From contig NC_022600.1 of the NCBI RefSeq assembly GCF_000484535.1, forward strand, positions 4,456,234 to 4,520,233: a DNA stretch of 64,000 nucleotides. Reading direction: 5' to 3'. Source of the DNA: Gloeobacter kilaueensis JS1. GTDB lineage: Bacteria; Cyanobacteriota; Cyanobacteriia; Gloeobacterales; Gloeobacteraceae. Under the pieces are notes generated by a model. It worked only from the letters and a program-made list of their open reading frames with translations, ran no database searches and was not told the DNA's origin. Below, piece after piece: positions 5,720 through 60,128 of the stretch. Numbering within the stretch: position 1 is the first letter of the stretch; each line of letters opens with the position of its first letter. Position numbers and translations under genes: made by a program.

Positions 5720-6742
<1,023 letters not shown>

Positions 6743-6796
6743 TGTTGACTCCCTTTTTTGATAGTGCGATCAAAGAAGCTGAACTGGATGGGGGCT

Positions 6797-9676
6797 TCAG
6801 CCCAGAGCCTGCTCGATCGCCGTCTGCAGCGCCGCGAGGCCCAGGGTGACATCCGCTCCGAGATGGACGCGCAGCGCCCGGCGCTGGCGCTGGGCCAGAA
6901 CCTCAAAGTCACCCCGCGCCTGGGCCGCTTTTACCACTCCAAAGGTATACTTCTGGCCGGGTACGTCCAGATCTTCGGCGACGTCGGCAGTGATCTGCAA
7001 GAACACACCCGTGTTCGGCCCGCCCTTGTACGCCTGGCCGGTGGAGTGCAAAAAGCGCGGACCAAAGCCCAGGCAGGTCGCGCTGTGTTTGGCGTCGCGC
7101 AACAGCTGGCGGATATTCTGAAGCAAAGTCGTGTGCTCGCCGTTGCGCTCGATGTAGGCGAGCAGCGCCAGGTAATCGCCGGGTCCAACCGTATCTAACA
7201 GCGCCCGCAGGTAGGCGGCCAGCGAAGGCGATGGGCCCACCGCCCCTTTGAGTATCCCGGCGTTGCGCTCGTCGGTGTAGAGCTTGATCCCTGCTTCCTC
7301 GAAGATGGGCGTCTCAGGCGGCAATTGGCCCGTCTTTTCGTACTCGCCGGTGAGCTTGCGGGTGGCGACTTTGCTCGCCTCGACGTCCGGCTGGTTGAAG
7401 GCGTTGATGCCGATGATCGAACCGGCAACCGCCGTCGCAATTTCCCAGCGGAAAAATTCCTGGCCGAGCTGGTACGGTTCGCTCACACCGATGCGCACCA
7501 CCGGCTGGCCTGCCCCCTCTAAAGCCGCCACCGCCGCATCCTGCACCGCATCGGGGGCCGTCTCCAGGCGAATGTAGGCAAAGAGCCGGTCCGCGCCGTA
7601 GACCTCCGGGGTGCCGAGCGGTTCGGCGGCCACGGGGATGAGCCCCTTGCCCTCCTTGCCCGTCGATTCGGCCAATAGTTGCTCAAGCCAGGCTCCCAGA
7701 TCGGCGATCCCCGGTGAGGCGACGATCGTCACCTTGTCGCGGCCTGTTTTGGCGAGCACGCCCAGGATTGCACCCAGCACGACGCCGGGATTGTCCTCCG
7801 CCGGAACGCTCGCCGCGCAGGCGTGGACCATCCGCTCGGTGACATCGAGGAAGTGGGGTACATCGATGCCCTGGATGGCACCAGGGACCATGCCAAAGTC
7901 CGACAGCACCGAGTAGCGCCCGCCGATACTGGGCAGGCCAAAGTAGGTGTGACGGAAGTGATCGCCTTCGGCCACCTGCTGCATCTTTGAGCCGGGATCG
8001 GTGACGGCGATGAAGCGCTCACCCGCTTTTTGATCCCCGATCGTTTGCCGAACGCGCTCGAAGAAGTACTGCTTGAAGATGTTCGGCTCCAGGGTGCCGC
8101 CGGATTTGCTGGAGACGATAAAAAGCGTGTTGGCGAGGTCGATGCGGTTCTCGAAGGAGCGGATCTGCTCCGGGTCGGTCGAATCGAGCACCAGCAGTTC
8201 CGGGTAGCCCGGCTGGGGGCCGAAGGTAAGCTTGAGCACCTCCGGGCCGAGGCTGGAGCCGCCCATGCCCAACAGCAGCGCCTGGCTGAAACCGGCCTGC
8301 TTGACCTCACTTGCGAGATCTTTTAGATGCCCGAGGTGGGCGAGCTGGTCGTCGGTGATCCCGAGCCAGCCCAGCCAGTTATTTTCGTCCGCTCCCGTCC
8401 AGAGGCTGGCATCCCGCGCCCAGAGGCGGCGCACCTTGCCCCCGACCTGCCAGCTTTCCAGTTCGGCCTTGACCGCCGATTCCAGTTCGGCCCCGAGCTT
8501 GTAGCTCTGGGTGTTGAGGGGCGCGGCGAGGGTTCCCTGCCGCCGCTTCTCGACGGTGCTCAACAGTTTGTCGAAGGCGTCGGCAAAGAGGCGCACGCCG
8601 TCGCTCACCAGCTGGTCTGTGACCGCAGCAAGAGAAATTTCGGCCCGCTCTTCGAGGTCTTTGAGCGTCGTGTACGCTTCTTCGAGGTGATCGTCGAGGC
8701 TCGCCCTCGGGCGTCCGTGGTCGCGGAAGGCGTCGAAGGTGGCGGGCGGAATCGTATCGACGGTGTTCGGTCCGATCAACTCTTCGACGTAGAGGACGTC
8801 GCGGTAGTTGGGATTCTTGGTGCTGGTGCTCGCCCACAAGAGTCGCTGCGGCTGGGCACCGGTCGTGTCGGCCAGGCGATGCCAGCGATCGGAGCGGTAG
8901 ATTTCTTTGTAGTGCTGGTAGGCAAGCCGGGCATTGGCGATCGCCACCTTGCCCAACAGGCCATTCAGCACCGCCCGCTCGCCGCCGCTGGTCGCGGATT
9001 TGATCTTCTCCTGCAGGAGGGCATCGACCGCCGTATCGATGCGGCTCACAAAAAAGCTCGCCACACTCGCCACCCGCGAGAGTTCTCCTCCAGAGGCGGC
9101 GAACGCCTCTAAGCCTTCGAGGTAGGCTTCTACCACCTGGGCGTAGGCTTGCTGGGCAAAAAGCAGCGTGACGTTGACGTTGATCCCTTCGCTAATCAGT
9201 TGCCGGATCGCCGGGATGCCTGCCGGGGTGGCGGGCACCTTGATCATCAGGTTCTCGCGGTTCACCGCCCCCCAGAGCCGCCGCGCCTCGGCGATCGTGG
9301 CCTCGGTGTCGTTGGCCAGATAGGGGGAAACTTCGAGGCTGATATAGCCGTCGTGCCGCTCGGTCTGCTCGTAGACGGGCCTGAGGATGTCGGCGGTCTT
9401 CTGGATATCTTCGATCGCCAGCCGCTCAAAAAGCGCCATCGCCTCCAGATCCTGCTCCTGTTCGAGGGCCGCGAGCGCTTCGTCGTAATCGTTCGATCCG
9501 GCAATCGCCTTTTCAAAAATAGACGGGTTGGAGGTGACGCCCCTGAGACCGTCCTCGTCGATCAGCCGCTGCAGCTCGCCGCTCGTGATCAAATTGCGCC
9601 GAATGTAGTCGAGCCAGACCGATTGACCGTAATCTTGCAATTTTTTTAGGGGATTTACCGTCTGTACAGCATTCAT
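6797..9676 (-). CDS. tal-pgi: Bifunctional transaldolase / glucose-6-phosphate isomerase
   Basis: A 959-residue fusion. The N-terminal part (about 1-370) is transaldolase, with TSNPSIFEKAI and the catalytic-lysine strand ENLMIKVPAT. The C-terminal part (about 390-950) is phosphoglucose isomerase, with LLGMGGSSLGPEVL, the phosphate-binding VSSKSGGTLEPN and RYSVLSDFG. The two activities return sedoheptulose/erythrose phosphates to fructose 6-phosphate and recycle that to glucose 6-phosphate for Zwf, closing the oxidative pentose phosphate cycle in one polypeptide. Such fusions are known in bacteria. It starts 21 bases after the glucoamylase gene. Confidence 0.95.
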   Translation of the reverse strand: MNAVQTVNPLKKLQDYGQSVWLDYIRRNLITSGELQRLIDEDGLRGVTSNPSIFEKAIAGSNDYDEALAALEQEQDLEAMALFERLAIEDIQKTADILRPVYEQTERHDGYISLEVSPYLANDTEATIAEARRLWGAVNRENLMIKVPATPAGIPAIRQLISEGINVNVTLLFAQQAYAQVVEAYLEGLEAFAASGGELSRVASVASFFVSRIDTAVDALLQEKIKSATSGGERAVLNGLLGKVAIANARLAYQHYKEIYRSDRWHRLADTTGAQPQRLLWASTSTKNPNYRDVLYVEELIGPNTVDTIPPATFDAFRDHGRPRASLDDHLEEAYTTLKDLEERAEISLAAVTDQLVSDGVRLFADAFDKLLSTVEKRRQGTLAAPLNTQSYKLGAELESAVKAELESWQVGGKVRRLWARDASLWTGADENNWLGWLGITDDQLAHLGHLKDLASEVKQAGFSQALLLGMGGSSLGPEVLKLTFGPQPGYPELLVLDSTDPEQIRSFENRIDLANTLFIVSSKSGGTLEPNIFKQYFFERVRQTIGDQKAGERFIAVTDPGSKMQQVAEGDHFRHTYFGLPSIGGRYSVLSDFGMVPGAIQGIDVPHFLDVTERMVHACAASVPAEDNPGVVLGAILGVLAKTGRDKVTIVASPGIADLGAWLEQLLAESTGKEGKGLIPVAAEPLGTPEVYGADRLFAYIRLETAPDAVQDAAVAALEGAGQPVVRIGVSEPYQLGQEFFRWEIATAVAGSIIGINAFNQPDVEASKVATRKLTGEYEKTGQLPPETPIFEEAGIKLYTDERNAGILKGAVGPSPSLAAYLRALLDTVGPGDYLALLAYIERNGEHTTLLQNIRQLLRDAKHSATCLGFGPRFLHSTGQAYKGGPNTGVFLQITADVAEDLDVPGQKYTFGVVKAAQARGDFEVLAQRQRRALRVHLGADVTLGLAALQTAIEQALG

Positions 9677-9697
9677 CGTGCGCCTCCTGAAAAAGTA

Positions 9698-12085
9698 CTA
9701 AATTACTTGCACCGCGTAGTCGCGGCCCTCCCACTGATTGCTCGCGATCCAGAAGAAAGTAAATCGCAGCGTTTCTCCACCCTGGCTTGTCGGCAGATCG
9801 GCGAAGGCAATGCCCAGGGCCGTACTCACAGAAGGGGTGTCCTGGACGCTCTGCCACTCGTCGGCGGACCAGTGTACCCGGAAGGCTCTGCCATCCTGCA
9901 GGATGCGCAGGGTGTCGCCCGCCTTGATCGCAGCAATCTGCCAGGCGGGCTTCCAGATCTCCAGGCGGTGGCAGGAGGCGCGCTCGCCCTGGTAGCGGTC
10001 GCGCACCTCCGGGATCAGATCGAACACCTCGCCGTCGTGGGTCGAGCGCAACAGCTTGATGTACTCGGCGTGCGCCCAGGCGAGGGGCATCGCCGAGCCG
10101 GTCGGTTTGCCCAGGTGCAGGTGCGCCTGGGGCAGATCCGGCGCGTCCCAGACCTGCTCGGGCAGGGGACCAGCTGGCGAAGCGAACGCCTCCAGCGCCT
10201 GGAGATAGCTCTGCACATCGCCGCCCGCCGCCAGTTCGTAGTGGCCCCGCTCGCCGGTCAAAAGCGGCCAGGCCCGGCCCGTGCCCCAGCCTGTAAACGG
10301 TCCACCGTCGTCTCGCTGACCGTAGCCGTCGTGGTTGTAGCGCCGCCAGACCGGTCCCATCGGCGTCTCGACTTTAAGTACGGCGTCTACGACCTTGATC
10401 GAATCGACGATGAGCGGGTCGTCGGCCCGGCGGATGCCGTAGCGCACCAGCTCCAGAAAGCCCGCATCGACGATCGTGCTGGCCGGATACGCTGCCTCAT
10501 CGCCGGGCTTTTGATTGGCAAGCCCGAGCCGCTTGCCCTCCAGATCGACGCTCAGCGGTGCGCCGCCTACCGGCTGGATGCGGATGTAGTGGCGGCGGAT
10601 ACCCGGCACCAGCGTGCCCGCGTTCGTCGCCGTCCAGGCTTCGAGGTGGCTCTCCAGGTAGTCGGCGTATTCTTCTAAAAAGCGCGCACTCGCCTCGTCC
10701 TGCCGCTCGCGGGCAAAACTCGCCGCACAGATGAGCGAAGCGATGTTGGTGGCGAGGGTAGAAGGTGACAGACCCCCCGCCTCCTCCCAGCGCTCCTGCC
10801 CGGTGGCCGGTCCCTTGCGAATCAGGCAGCCCGCCGCCTCCAGCACCATCGCGCACGGGTCGAAGCCCTGCAGGGCGTCGGCGCGCCTGAGCCGCCAGGC
10901 AAGCAGGATCGGAAAAGACACCTCGTCCAGTTGCAGCCCCTGCCAGTAGGTCTGGCCGCCGATCCAGAAATTTTGTGAAAAGCCGCCGTCCTCGCGCTGG
11001 ACCGCCGCCAGATAGATCAGTGCCCGCAGGGGCGTGTCGCGGTTACCGGCAGCGAGCAGAGCGGTGGCGGAGTTGACCATGTCCCTCGGCCAGACGAGGT
11101 GATAGCCGCCGGTGTCATCTTCGCCCTTGGCCTCGCCCCAGGGGATGGCGAGGGAGGCGATGAGCGCGCCGGAGTTGGACTTGTCCTCGTGGGCGAGCAG
11201 AATGCCGTAGCTGTTGCGGTAGAGCTTCCCGCCGTCCTTGGCCGACCCATCTAAGGGCAGAATGTGTCGGTAGGGCCGCTCCCACTGTTCAATGAAGCGC
11301 TGCAACTGCTCAGCGAAGGGCAGGCTCAAAGATTGCAGCAGTACGGTGGCGGCGTTGTTGAGGCTGTGGCCAAAGGCAAGGCCCAGGGTAAACTCCCGCC
11401 TCTCGCTTAAATCAAGCTCACCTGTGAGGGCAACGTTGCCGTCGATGGCCTGATCGAACTGCCAGTTCATCTCAAAGTTGGCCGCAAGGTCCGTCCAGCC
11501 GTCGCTGGTGCCGACGTAGCCGCAGGAGAGGCGGCAAAAGGGCACCGTCGCTCCCATCGCAAGCCAGGTGTTGCCCTTCTGGCAGACGAGCAGATCCTGG
11601 CCTGCGACGCTCACGACGTAGGCGTTGTTGCCCCAGCCGCTCACCTTCAGGTGGGGCGAGCAGAGGGCGTACAGGCGCAGCTGTGAGACAAAATCCTCCT
11701 CGCCCAACAGCTGCACGTGCTGCAGGATGCAGGGCAGGTGCGGATCGGCGATGATTTCTTTGACGATCCGGTAGCGGTCCTCGCTGTCGCGGTTGGTGGT
11801 CCGATAGCCAAGGCCCTGACCCAGACATTCGATCGTCGGCTGCAGGTGGCGCTTCTCCTCGTGCAAAAAGCTTTTGCCGTCGCTGATGAGAAATTGCAGA
11901 TCGCGGATCTGGGGCGTATCGACGGTTGGAAAGTACGTCTCGGTGAGAATGCCCCGCCAGAGCGTAAACCAGATGCGACTGGGACTGGAGTAGGCGGTTC
12001 CCACCGCGTCCTTGCTGCCGGCAGTCCACCGAGGCTCGATCCCTGGCGGCCCGAAAGCCCTTTGCTCGCCGCGAAATTTGACCAT
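9698..12085 (-). CDS. GH15 glucoamylase (glucan 1,4-alpha-glucosidase)
   Basis: A protein of about 795 residues with an N-terminal beta-sandwich domain (to about 270) and a C-terminal (alpha/alpha)6 barrel. Family landmarks include VWPRDM, the likely general acid in GLQLDEVSFP, the RRYNHDGYG stretch, WPLLTGERGHYEL and the likely general base in PLPEQVWD. It should release glucose from alpha-1,4-glucan ends. No signal peptide is seen, so glycogen or maltodextrin inside the cell is the likely substrate. I chose the ATG at 12085 over the one at 12097 because GGGAGA between them makes a good ribosome site. It is first in the pentose phosphate operon. Confidence 0.88.
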   Translation of the reverse strand: MVKFRGEQRAFGPPGIEPRWTAGSKDAVGTAYSSPSRIWFTLWRGILTETYFPTVDTPQIRDLQFLISDGKSFLHEEKRHLQPTIECLGQGLGYRTTNRDSEDRYRIVKEIIADPHLPCILQHVQLLGEEDFVSQLRLYALCSPHLKVSGWGNNAYVVSVAGQDLLVCQKGNTWLAMGATVPFCRLSCGYVGTSDGWTDLAANFEMNWQFDQAIDGNVALTGELDLSERREFTLGLAFGHSLNNAATVLLQSLSLPFAEQLQRFIEQWERPYRHILPLDGSAKDGGKLYRNSYGILLAHEDKSNSGALIASLAIPWGEAKGEDDTGGYHLVWPRDMVNSATALLAAGNRDTPLRALIYLAAVQREDGGFSQNFWIGGQTYWQGLQLDEVSFPILLAWRLRRADALQGFDPCAMVLEAAGCLIRKGPATGQERWEEAGGLSPSTLATNIASLICAASFARERQDEASARFLEEYADYLESHLEAWTATNAGTLVPGIRRHYIRIQPVGGAPLSVDLEGKRLGLANQKPGDEAAYPASTIVDAGFLELVRYGIRRADDPLIVDSIKVVDAVLKVETPMGPVWRRYNHDGYGQRDDGGPFTGWGTGRAWPLLTGERGHYELAAGGDVQSYLQALEAFASPAGPLPEQVWDAPDLPQAHLHLGKPTGSAMPLAWAHAEYIKLLRSTHDGEVFDLIPEVRDRYQGERASCHRLEIWKPAWQIAAIKAGDTLRILQDGRAFRVHWSADEWQSVQDTPSVSTALGIAFADLPTSQGGETLRFTFFWIASNQWEGRDYAVQVI

Positions 12086-55012: not shown

Positions 55013-57433
55013 ATGTCACCAGTCCTAGGAGCTCAGCCCGAGGCTGAGGCACCCGATCAGGATGCATCTTTTCAACCTTTCGTGCGGATGTCGCGCATGG
55101 TCCGGCCTGGGGTGTCCCGGAGCGAGGACACCGAAGATCTCTGGTTATCGATGGCTCGGGATCTGTTTGGCCGGGGTTACGTCGAAGAACTGAGCCAGCG
55201 GCCCCGCCTCGACTGGGAAGATCTGGTGCAGCCCGCCACCGACGCCCAGGCCGATGCTAAAGCCCAAGAAAAACTGGGCATCGCCAGCGTCGCTCCCGCC
55301 CAGCCCTTCGAACTGCGGCCCAACAGCACAGAAGCGGACAAGCAACTGGTGATCCGTGCCGCCTACAAGCAGGTCTTTGGCAACACGTACATTCTGGAAT
55401 CCGACCGGCTCATTCAGGCAGAGTCGCTTCTTAAAAACGGCAGCATCAGCGTGCGGGAGTTCGTCCGGCTTCTGGCCAAGTCCGAACTGTATAAGTCCCG
55501 TTTCTTCCACAGCACCTCCAACAACCGCTTTATCGAGCTGAACCTCAAGCACCTGCTGGGTCGTGCGCCCTACGACCAGTCAGAAATCTCCTTCCACCTG
55601 GATCTCTACTGCCAGAAGGGCTACGACGCCGAGATTGACAGCTACATTGACAGCGAAGAGTACCGGCAGCTTTTTGGCGAAGACATCGTACCCTACTACC
55701 GGAGCTTCAAGTACCAGACCGGCCAGTCCGCCTGGGCCTTCGATCGCTTCCGCACCCTCTATGGAGGCGACGCCGGCAGCGACACCGACCGCAACAAAAG
55801 CGGTCAGCGCACCCAGCTCACCACCAACATCACCCGTCCCGATCTGCCTTCCGGAGCCGACTACGCCAGTTTGAGCGCACCGAGCGCCAAAGGACCGGAC
55901 ACGGTAGCCGATATCTGGCTTGAGGCCGCCCGCGACTTGATTGCTCAGGGCAACTACACCGAAAAGTCGATCGTCGTCGAGTCCAATCTGCAGTTGCCTT
56001 CCTATCAGCGCTTTCTGGTGCCCTCCGAGGCCGCCCGGATCGACGCGGAGGCGCAGACCAAGCTGGGGATCACAAGTGTCGCACCGGCTGTAACTTTCGA
56101 ACTGCGGCCCAACAGCACAGAAGCGGACAAGCAACTGGTGATCCGTGCCGCCTACAAGCAGGTCTTTGGCAACACGTACATTCTGGAATCCGACCGGCTC
56201 ATCCAGGCGGAGTCGCTTCTTAAAAACGGCAGCATCAGCGTGCGGGAGTTCGTCCGGCTTCTGGCCAAGTCCGAACTGTATAAGTCCCGTTTCTTCCGCC
56301 CGGCTTCTAACAACCGCTTTATCGAACTCAATTTCAAGCACCTGCTGGGCCGTGCGCCCTACAGCCAGGCAGAGATCGCCGAGCACTTTGGCCGCTACCA
56401 CAAGGCCGGTTACGACGCAGAAATCGACAGCTACCTCGACAGCGAGGAGTACCGCCGCACCTTTGGCGAGGACATCGTGCCCTACTACCGGGGCTTCAAG
56501 TACCAGACCGGCCAGTCCGCCCGAGCCTTCGAGCAACTGCAGCAGCTGTGGGGCGGCGACGCCGGCAGCGACACCGATCGCGGCCAGGGACAGATAACCC
56601 AGCTCACCTACACCCTCGCCCGTCCGCTCATCGAAACCGGAGTTGTCCTCTCCGCTGCTGCCGCCGGGGGGACGGTGGGCGATGGGCTTGAAACCTTCCT
56701 AAAGTGGGCGCAGGAGCTGGGTTCGGTCGCCACTCCCCAGCCGACCGCAGCGCCCGTAGTCGAAGTTGCCAGACCGCGAAAGGCAGAAGGGTACTTTACC
56801 CGGCCCGCCGCCGACGCCCAGGCCGATGCTAAAGCCCAAGAAAAACTGGGCATCGCCAGCGTCGCTCCCGCCCAGCCCTTCGAACTGCGGCCCAACAGCA
56901 CAGAAGCGGACAAGCAACTGGTGATCCGTGCCGCCTACAAGCAGGTCTTTGGCAACACGTACATTCTGGAATCCGACCGGCTCATTCAGGCAGAGTCGCT
57001 TCTTAAAAACGGCAGCATCAGCGTGCGGGAGTTCGTCCGGCTTCTGGCCAAGTCCGAACTGTATAAGTCCCGTTTCTTCCACAGCACCTCCAACAACCGC
57101 TTTATCGAACTCACCTTCAAGCATCTTTTGGGCCGCGCTCCCTACAACCAGTCGGAGATTGCCCAGCATCTCGACCGCTATCAGAAGGCGGGCTACGACG
57201 CGGAGATCGATTCTTATATCGACAGCGAGGAGTACCGGCAGCTTTTTGGCGAAGACATCGTGCCCTACTACCGGGGTTTCAAGTACCAGATTGGCCAGTC
57301 GGCGGCAGCCTTCCCCCGCCTGCTCCAACTGTGGGGCGGCGACGCCGGCAGCGACACCGACCGCAACCAGAATGGTCAGTTGCGCCGCGTCGAACCCGAC
57401 GAACTACTGCGCTCTGGCCGTGGGATCGTTTAG
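55013..57433 (+). CDS. Large phycobilisome rod linker with three REP domains
   Basis: An 806-residue linker. Three PBS-linker domains lie at about 99-255, 362-518 and 623-780, each beginning FELRPNSTEADKQLVIRAAY and ending near IVPYYRxFKYQ. They are joined by roughly 100-residue connectors with a shared helix (DLWLSMARDL, DIWLEAARDL) and a (A)xAKAQEKLGI-type lead-in. There is no C-terminal CpcD domain. Triple-REP linkers (CpcJ/Glr2806 and Glr1262 types) are a Gloeobacter trait tied to its bundle-shaped phycobilisome, where they organise several rod hexamers. The three units are nearly identical in DNA. Confidence 0.92.
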   Translation: MSPVLGAQPEAEAPDQDASFQPFVRMSRMVRPGVSRSEDTEDLWLSMARDLFGRGYVEELSQRPRLDWEDLVQPATDAQADAKAQEKLGIASVAPAQPFELRPNSTEADKQLVIRAAYKQVFGNTYILESDRLIQAESLLKNGSISVREFVRLLAKSELYKSRFFHSTSNNRFIELNLKHLLGRAPYDQSEISFHLDLYCQKGYDAEIDSYIDSEEYRQLFGEDIVPYYRSFKYQTGQSAWAFDRFRTLYGGDAGSDTDRNKSGQRTQLTTNITRPDLPSGADYASLSAPSAKGPDTVADIWLEAARDLIAQGNYTEKSIVVESNLQLPSYQRFLVPSEAARIDAEAQTKLGITSVAPAVTFELRPNSTEADKQLVIRAAYKQVFGNTYILESDRLIQAESLLKNGSISVREFVRLLAKSELYKSRFFRPASNNRFIELNFKHLLGRAPYSQAEIAEHFGRYHKAGYDAEIDSYLDSEEYRRTFGEDIVPYYRGFKYQTGQSARAFEQLQQLWGGDAGSDTDRGQGQITQLTYTLARPLIETGVVLSAAAAGGTVGDGLETFLKWAQELGSVATPQPTAAPVVEVARPRKAEGYFTRPAADAQADAKAQEKLGIASVAPAQPFELRPNSTEADKQLVIRAAYKQVFGNTYILESDRLIQAESLLKNGSISVREFVRLLAKSELYKSRFFHSTSNNRFIELTFKHLLGRAPYNQSEIAQHLDRYQKAGYDAEIDSYIDSEEYRQLFGEDIVPYYRGFKYQIGQSAAAFPRLLQLWGGDAGSDTDRNQNGQLRRVEPDELLRSGRGIV
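55241..55536 (+). repeat. REP-domain DNA repeat, copy 1
   Basis: A 296-base block that reads the same, base for base, as 56813-57108 (offset 1572). It encodes the connector lead-in and the first half of REP domain 1. Confidence 0.9.
56096..56297 (+). repeat. REP-domain DNA repeat, copy 2
   Basis: A 202-base block that matches 55307-55508 (offset 789) with two differences by eye, both at third codon positions near 56206-56212. It encodes the first half of REP domain 2. Confidence 0.88.
56813..57108 (+). repeat. REP-domain DNA repeat, copy 3
   Basis: A 296-base block identical to 55241-55536. It encodes the lead-in and first half of REP domain 3. Confidence 0.9.
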
Positions 57434-57582: not shown

Positions 57583-58440
57583 ATGGCGATTGGACCTGCG
57601 TCTGAGCTTGGTATCAGCCTGTTTGAAGACACAGACCCTATCGAATTGTGGCCCGGCCATTCCAAAGAAGAAGTTGAAACGGTCATCCGAGCCGTCTACA
57701 GGCAGGTTCTCGGTAACGCCTATGTAATGGAAAGTGAGCGACTGGTTGTTCCCGAATCCCAACTCAAGCGCGGGGAGATTTCGGTGCGCGAGTTCGTCCG
57801 TCAGGTAGCAAAGTCCGAACTGTATAAATCGCGGTTTCTTTACAGTGTGCCGCGTTATCGGGCGATCGAACTCAACTTCAAGCATCTACTGGGTCGTGCT
57901 CCCAACGGTTACAAGGAGATGGCCTACCACAGCAGCGTCCTTGACGCCGGTGGTCACGACGCGGAGATCGATTCGTACCTCGACAGCGACGAGTACCAGG
58001 AAGCTTACGGACAGGACACGGTGCCTTTCTATCGGGGCTATCGCACCCAGCCGGGCATCAGCATGGTCGAATTTACCCACATCTTCCGCCTGCTGCGGGG
58101 TTCCTCGACCAGCGACAAGGGCAGCTACCCTGACCTCGCTACCCCGCGCCTCAACAGTTTGATCATCAACGAAAAGGCCGTTCCGGTGCTGCCGATCACC
58201 GTGGCACCGACGTCCGATCGCACCCAGTACAACGTGCTGACGCCCAACACCGAGTGGGGCCGCAAAGTGCTCAAGATCACCGTCGCCCGTTCGCCGGGCC
58301 TCGGTGCCAACCTCGACACCTACGATCCGAGCGACAGCAGCTACAGCGTAGTGGTGCCGCTCAACCGGTTACTGAGCGAGATGGAGACCATCAAGCGCAA
58401 GGGTGGCCGGATCCTCAACGTCACCTCGGTCGTGGCGTAA
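57583..58440 (+). CDS. cpcC: Rod linker, REP plus CpcD domain (CpcC type)
   Basis: A 285-residue linker. The REP domain occupies about 20-175 ([34 protein letters not shown]) and a CpcD domain about 226-285 ([37 protein letters not shown]). This two-domain layout and length fit phycocyanin rod linker CpcC. It holds stacked hexamers together and tunes their spectra. It is preceded by a 150-base gap containing a hairpin. Confidence 0.9.
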
Positions 58441-58543
58441 TCGTCTAAGGCAAGTGTACAGACCGACAGTGCTGGCGGGGGTCAAGATGGCCCTCGCGGG
58501 ATTCTGTCGTGTTCGTTCCATGTCCACTTAGGAGAACCGAATC

Positions 58544-59305
58544 ATGGCAGTCTTGACAGGAGCTGTTGCATCCGATGACCTGGGCCTATACCTTTCGCCG
58601 GATAGTTCCCCGGACGAGGTGCAGACGGTCATTCGTGCCGTCTACAAGCAGGTTCTGGGTAATCCCCACCTGATGGAATCCGAGCGGCTGGTCGTGCCCG
58701 AATCGCAGCTCAAACGCGGCGAGATCTCCGTGCGCGAGTTCGTGCGCCTCGTGGCCAAATCCGATTTTTACCGGGCCCGGTTCTTCGAGAGTGCCGCTCC
58801 TTACCGCTTCGTCGAACTCAATTTCAAGCACCTCCTGGGCCGCGCTCCGCTCGATCAAGCCGAGGTCTCGAAGCACATTCGTCTGGCGGTCGAGCAGGGC
58901 TACGATGCGGAGATTGACAGCTACATCGACAGCGACGAATACCAGGATGCCTTTGGCGAGGACACTGTGCCTTATCCCCGCACCGTGAGCCAGACCGGAC
59001 AAAAGCAGGTGGGCTTCAACCGCCTGTCGCTTTTGTTGCGCGGCGGAGCCGAGGCAGACAAGGCGATCAAAGAGTCGCAGCTGGTCTACGCCCTCGCCAC
59101 CAACAGCACCAACAAGATCGAGCCGCCCCAGAACACCCGCCGCACCGATAAGTTATTCCGCATCGTCGTCTCCGGAGCAAAGTACACTGGCCGCCTGCGC
59201 CGCAGCACGGTCGAATATCTGGTGCCCGGCGATCACATGACTGCCCAGATCCAGCGCATCAACCGCACCAGCGGCACGATCGTCAGCATCACCGAGGTGC
59301 TCTGA
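58544..59305 (+). CDS. Rod linker, REP plus short CpcD-like tail (CpeC/CpeD type, copy 1)
   Basis: A 253-residue linker with a REP domain at about 22-175 ([32 protein letters not shown]). Its C-terminal CpcD-like domain (KLFRIVVSGAKYTG, TGTIVSITEV-type end) lacks the full CpcC spacing. Its size fits phycoerythrin-associated linkers CpeC or CpeD, but which phycobiliprotein it binds cannot be told by eye. AGGAGAA precedes the ATG. Confidence 0.87.
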   Translation: MAVLTGAVASDDLGLYLSPDSSPDEVQTVIRAVYKQVLGNPHLMESERLVVPESQLKRGEISVREFVRLVAKSDFYRARFFESAAPYRFVELNFKHLLGRAPLDQAEVSKHIRLAVEQGYDAEIDSYIDSDEYQDAFGEDTVPYPRTVSQTGQKQVGFNRLSLLLRGGAEADKAIKESQLVYALATNSTNKIEPPQNTRRTDKLFRIVVSGAKYTGRLRRSTVEYLVPGDHMTAQIQRINRTSGTIVSITEVL

Positions 59306-59366
59306 CAGCGGCCTGAATGCGCTGCTGTCGTTCGACTGCGTCCGTTTTTAATAAGGAGAAACCACC

Positions 59367-60128
59367 ATGTCACTTTGGGCTATCGATTCGCCGATCGTCG
59401 AGTTGCGTCCGAATGCTACCGAGGACGACCTGCAACTGGTGATCCGGGCGGTCTACAGGCAGGTTCTGGGCAACGAGCATCTGATGGAATCCGAGCGCCT
59501 CGATTCGGCAGAATCACTGCTGCGCAACGGCGATATCACCGTCAGCCAGTTCGTGCGCCTGGTCGCCAAATCCGATCTCTACCGCGCCCTGTTCTTTGAA
59601 TCGACCTCGCAGTACCGCTTTATCGAACTCAACTTCAAGCACCTGCTGGGCCGTGCTCCGATCGATCAAGCCGAGATCTCCCAGCACGTCCGCCTCTACA
59701 ACGACGAAGGCTACGACGCAGAGATCGACTCATACATCGACAGCGACGAGTACATCCAGAACTTTGGCGAAAATATCGTTCCTTACCCACGGGCAACCCG
59801 CAGCCAAATCGGTCTCTCGAACGTCGTCTTCAACCGGACCTTCGTCCTCGATCGCGGGGCGGCGAGCAGCGACGGCGGCAGCGACGCAAGGCTCATCGCC
59901 TCCCTCGCCGCCAACCTGCCCGTTGCGATCAAAGCTCCCGCTCCCGGCAGTGCCGCCGCCGGCAACACCGCCAAGCGCTTCCGTATCCAGGTCTCAAAGT
60001 CGAACGCCGGGCCTCGCGTGCGCTACAGCAACATCGAGTACGTCGTCAACTACGAGCAACTGTCGCACCAGGTACAGAACATTCACAAAGCTGGTGGTAC
60101 AATTGTCAGCATCTCCGAAGTAGCCTGA
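59367..60128 (+). CDS. Rod linker, REP plus short CpcD-like tail (CpeC/CpeD type, copy 2)
   Basis: A 253-residue paralogue of the preceding linker, the same length. REP is at about 12-165 ([32 protein letters not shown]), followed by an Ala/Pro-rich hinge and a CpcD-like end ([22 protein letters not shown]). A phycoerythrin rod linker is likely. AAGGAGAA precedes the ATG. Confidence 0.87.

Follow-up and report, generated by a model that had tools for sequence, protein, structure and literature searches.

The window analysed here is a stretch of 64,000 nucleotides from the genome of Gloeobacter kilaueensis JS1, which is complete in one contig of 4,724,791 bp. Positions 55013-57433 of the forward strand hold a triple-REP phycobilisome linker gene in one open frame (806 aa), the orthologue of G. 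violaceus Glr1262, a linker also named CpcGm (PMC10696076). A domain search of the product found three PF00427 domains, REP1 (55328-55702), REP2 (56117-56491), and REP3 (56900-57274), and no CpcD domain (PF01383). The best solved relative, PDB chain 9k9w_a9 (“Glr1262 protein”), matches over the full length. By cryo-EM of the G. violaceus protein, each of the three REPs sits in one phycocyanin hexamer, and the three hexamers mark out an equilateral triangle that makes up a rod bundle (PMC12525769). A CpeS-like gene and two ferredoxin-dependent bilin reductase genes lie upstream of the triple-REP gene. Downstream on the same strand (57583-60128) are three single-REP rod linkers (57583-58440, 58544-59305, and 59367-60128), each with PF00427 and PF01383 and none of them homogenised with the triple-REP gene. 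The gene order is shared within Gloeobacter: the same 285-aa single-REP linker lies 3′ of the triple-REP gene in L015, L017, and L045, the last of these on a contig of Aphanocapsa lilacina HA4352-LM1.

The three REP units of the gene share long tracts of identical DNA. An earlier note, made from the sequence alone, had reported 296 identical bases in copies 1 and 3 (55241-55536 and 56813-57108). This is true, and the maximal exact run is two bases longer, at 298 nt (55239-55536 and 56811-57108); when one mismatch is allowed (55238) the tract reaches 55231. The note had also given only two differences over 202 bases for copy 2 (56096-56297), which we confirmed against 55307-55508: ATT/ATC in the codon at 55412 and GCA/GCG in the codon at 55418, both silent. 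In the tract core, protein identity among the three units was 100%. A count of synonymous differences, suggested in the note as a check, showed a sharp contrast along the unit. Among conserved degenerate codons, copies 1 and 3 differed silently at 0/98 in the tract vs. 27/68 on its 3′ side (Fisher p = 8e-13). The corresponding counts were 2/67 vs. 17/69 for copies 1 and 2 (p = 3e-4), and 2/67 vs. 23/75 for copies 2 and 3 (p = 1e-5).

Runs of this length were not obtained by chance. With the proteins fixed and codons sampled from the antenna-gene usage of this genome (5000 trials per pair), chance runs averaged 19-20 nt and the longest were 47-54 nt per pair, vs. 298 and 107 nt observed; for copies 1 and 3 the null maximum was 50 nt. 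Variable codons agreeing between copies 1 and 3 formed a run of 24 among 82, a length reached in 0/3000 permutations. The longest exact match of a triple-REP unit to any other REP gene in the genome was 33 nt. Background matches reached 40 nt between different REP genes within one genome and 35 nt between species and gene classes. The claim that the other linkers of the cluster differ strongly also held, as the three neighbouring linkers shared less than 26 nt of exact sequence with any REP unit of the gene. A donor elsewhere in the genome was considered and rejected: no further copy of the tract was found, and the best matches outside the gene were 80% (245 nt) and 84% (174 nt) identical.

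The single G. kilaueensis genome was compared with those of G. violaceus (4,659,019 bp), G. morelensis (4,921,229-bp main contig), and Aphanocapsa lilacina HA4352-LM1. All four have the triple-REP gene with three units, and the G. kilaueensis product was 67-68% identical in amino acids to the other three over its full length. In these other three genomes the units paired by position, with 91-97% nucleotide identity between species vs. 78-81% within the gene, and the units of one gene were 76-80% identical in amino acids without homogenisation of the core. The G. violaceus gene, with its three PF00427 domains and the same linkers by position, differs from that of G. kilaueensis in that its 5′ cores are not homogenised; 42-44 of the 190 codons of its units differ silently between units. 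Since the units pair by position in all three relatives, the 5′ core must have been homogenised in the lineage of the window genome.

Phylogenetic analyses revealed two ancestries within one unit. For unit codons 35-96 the G. kilaueensis units grouped together and the by-position tree was rejected (delta lnL 68.7, p-AU 3e-4); for codons 20-96 its delta lnL was 88.7. Position-specific ancestry is kept in codons 97-140 (55508-55639 in copy 1, with equivalents at 56297-56428 and 57080-57211). Here the best unconstrained tree was the by-position tree, monophyly of the G. kilaueensis units was rejected (p-AU 0.018), and same-position units were 78, 86, and 85% identical in amino acids vs. 59-76% to units at other positions. 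The mosaic breakpoint lies within this segment, the first 29 nt of which are still in the tract in copies 1 and 3. For codons 134-190 the two ancestries were not clearly separated, and for codons 97-190 neither tree was rejected. Outside the units, the N-terminus, the linker between units 1 and 2 (55790-56008), the linker between units 2 and 3 (56579-56791), and the C-terminus paired one-to-one with G. violaceus, with local scores of 170, 121, 84, and 93 on the diagonal vs. at most 38 off it (at most 33 for the second linker). The earlier note had named pairing by position between strains, with many synonymous differences, as a refutation; the outcome was mixed, with within-gene pairing in the 5′ core of the window genome and by-position pairing in the three relatives.

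The paralogue Glr2806/CpcJ, also a multi-REP linker, is at a separate locus (1.03 Mb; G000:C1:1033105-1034439) and shows within-gene concerted evolution that is stronger than in the triple-REP gene. Unlike in that gene, its repeat number varies: G. violaceus and G. morelensis have three REP units each, the window genome two. PMC12525769 likewise describes the G. kilaueensis homologue as a two-REP protein with one domain missing, and gives no cause. CpcJ of G. morelensis contains a perfect 1037-nt tandem self-match at an offset of 687 nt (gene positions 269-1305 and 956-1992) that includes both inter-unit linkers, a pattern of tandem duplication of whole unit plus linker. Both linkers are of the type found in G. 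violaceus only between units 2 and 3, which suggests either that the array contracted and re-expanded or that the first linker was replaced. In G. violaceus CpcJ, runs of 326, 334, and 142 nt were found and the linkers differ. Fourteen codons are fixed for one form across the G. morelensis copies and for a different form across the G. violaceus copies (three copies in each species), all of these differences being silent, and for codons 38-133 the by-position tree was rejected (delta lnL 85.6). CpcJ has been homogenised separately in these two species. The suggestion that repeat number changes by recombination is not borne out in the triple-REP gene, with three units in 4/4 genomes, and fits CpcJ, with two units here, three in two relatives, and tandem identity in one of them. 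In A. lilacina HA4352-LM1, CpcJ is split at contig ends inside its first and last repeats with the middle missing (G001 C36/C37; end of L128 and start of L129), as expected of near-identical repeats.

We make no claim of conversion between the Glr1262 and Glr2806 loci, as exact matches between the two genes (at most 40 nt) are within background. A weak hint came from the core tree, which placed the G. kilaueensis Glr1262 units beside the G. kilaueensis Glr2806 units (support 65-69). In protein, unit 2 of the triple-REP gene (56297-56428) also resembles unit 1 of G. kilaueensis CpcJ (G000:C1:1033105-1033719), and the two have a 27-residue signature in common that is absent from CpcJ of the other species; an old exchange between both loci is possible.

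Exact tracts were also found in other linkers of the group. In the G. morelensis orthologue of the triple-REP gene, units 1 and 2 share a 109-nt run that lies elsewhere in the repeat, at codons 132-168. In genome G296, presumed to be Anthocerotibacter panamensis from its five-REP gene resembling CpcN (PMC10696076), REPs of CpcN (L153, frame from 44, 1242 aa) match each other exactly over 53, 102, and 139 nt, and those of CpcJ (L153, frame from 3762, 555 aa) over 152 nt; null maxima were 35-44 nt vs. the runs of 102, 139, and 152 nt. These five- and two-REP linkers (PDB 8imn, 8iml) resemble the triple-REP gene in their tracts and differ from it as distinct linker types, sampled in one strain. 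ApcE, the core-membrane linker, has four REP copies of the same domain family in one gene and, unlike the linkers above, no homogenisation, the longest exact run being 8-19 nt. Homogenisation is not a general property of multi-REP linkers: a similarity search gave 79 loci, almost all of them outside Gloeobacterales, and in their 39 frames with 2 to 7 REPs runs did not exceed 40 nt. In genome G297 the REPs are 84-88% identical in protein, yet runs did not exceed 23 nt. Together with ApcE, this demonstrates that protein constraint alone gives no such tracts.

The best explanation, in which we have high confidence, is intragenic gene conversion within an old three-domain linker gene in the G. kilaueensis lineage. 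Segments of the gene are closer to each other within the genome than to their orthologues, silent sites are identical in bounded tracts, ancestry is discordant across a breakpoint, and the pattern is lineage-specific and recurs in several genes and species at differing positions. The trees, the silent-site contrast, and the codon null all favour gene conversion over protein-level selection alone, as the earlier note had proposed. Its other proposal was recent tandem duplication, in which the three units would be young copies of one ancestor. The high DNA identity of the cores is what such copies would show, but the identity ends inside the domain and not at domain borders, and a unit copied together with its linker and lacking positional orthology is not what the triple-REP gene contains. 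Both termini are one-to-one with G. violaceus, and the linkers and the mid-domain segment (codons 97-140) pair by position across species, so the triplication, present in all four genomes, is older than the species split. Recent duplication is thereby excluded for this gene, and we give it virtually no credence. It is very improbable that the identity is an assembly artefact, with the reads of similar copies merged into one consensus. Repeats of this kind do trouble assemblers, as the CpcJ broken at two contig ends in A. lilacina illustrates; however, copy-specific bases flank the tract, silent divergence of 25-40% elsewhere in the unit would separate the reads, the G. kilaueensis genome is complete in one contig, and independent assemblies of other species show the same pattern. 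Read mis-mapping could have sharpened the near-perfect identity in part, although it would not have created it where copies differ at that many silent codons.

Selection could act on the tracts at two levels other than plain protein constraint. Antenna genes are highly expressed and may carry strong codon bias, and silent sites might be held alike by codon optimisation, mRNA structure, or a regulatory element. Antenna codon usage, however, predicts only 47% identical core codons vs. the 97-100% seen. When the tract is compared with the same position in G. violaceus, 33-39 of about 74 conserved codons show silent differences, and in other species tracts sit elsewhere in the repeat, as in G. morelensis. 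Because the silent sites of the tract diverge between species, constraint on the DNA is excluded, and we consider this reading extremely improbable. Selection might instead favour homogenisation itself, if a symmetrical rod bundle needs three equal hexamer-binding domains; the earlier note had raised such a role. The triangular arrangement of the three hexamers (PMC12525769) does imply similar demands on the REPs, the cores are identical in protein, and the REPs of ApcE, which are divergent in sequence, are not homogenised. But the other three genomes maintain units that are only 76-80% identical without homogenising the core, G297 keeps its REPs alike in protein without long DNA identity, and the species-fixed changes homogenised in CpcJ are all silent, as expected if protein selection acts alone. 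We saw no evidence that homogenisation itself is selected, and regard it as unlikely that it serves to keep three binding sites equal. Homogenisation is probably a tolerated by-product with no dedicated function.

Under gene conversion, one copying event would have made approximately 300 nt of units 1 and 3 identical. The signatures APAQ and FFH, typical of unit 3 and common to copies 1 and 3, are two short, weak pointers to copy 3 (56811-57108) as the probable donor and copy 1 (55239-55536) as the probable recipient. Unit 2 would have been homogenised over 202 nt or more in this event or a previous one, with two silent changes gained since. The exchange could have proceeded by RecA-type homologous pairing or by template switching, the direct repeats being separated by 783-1572 bp and lying on one chromosome or on two sister chromosomes. 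In the triple-REP gene it would have taken place without net crossover, leaving the repeat number at three. In CpcJ the outcomes also look crossover-like (perfect 687-bp tandem units, a replaced linker, two vs. three units), and similar exchange, between direct repeats 0.7-1.6 kb apart overall, may there have been resolved as unequal exchange that changed the unit number or linker. Purifying selection on the protein would hold the domains alike enough for recombination to continue. The domains stay alike through recombination as well as selection.

Repeats are known to undergo concerted evolution. In spider silk genes, for example, repeats are more alike within than between species through gene conversion or unequal crossing over (PMC3933166). 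The Gloeobacter case differs in that the repeats are three large globular domains, each pair separated by its own type of linker; they belong to a light-harvesting scaffold of a bacterium, and the tracts are short and mosaic. Our search of the open literature, with subscription papers outside it, found no report of gene conversion or concerted evolution in phycobilisome linkers, which is not proof that there is none; the passages naming Glr1262 in PMC12525769 and PMC10696076 do not discuss homogenisation. Gloeobacterales, which lack thylakoids, form the sister line to the other cyanobacteria, and multi-REP linkers underlie the unusual phycobilisome forms of this group (bundle and paddle). We tentatively propose that recombination between near-identical REPs inside single linker genes may be a general route in this group by which sites for hexamers are gained, lost, and equalised (2, 3, or 5 in one protein), setting antenna size and shape over evolutionary time. 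Should these linkers evolve through recombination between domains of one gene, the repeat number, and with it the number of phycocyanin hexamers bound, could change in one step, and the 2 vs. 3 repeat difference of CpcJ (PMC12525769) would gain a plausible cause. Phylogenies built from REP domains or from entire linkers to order antenna evolution could then mislead as well. The finding is relevant to changes of antenna size in early-branching cyanobacteria.

Multi-REP frames were also observed beyond these genomes. Xenococcus sp. MO_188.B8 has a 2010-aa open frame with seven REPs and no ApcE motif (L104, about 5920-11949, forward strand), and L046-L055 contain frames other than ApcE that have three to four REPs. 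Multi-REP linkers thus also exist outside Gloeobacterales.
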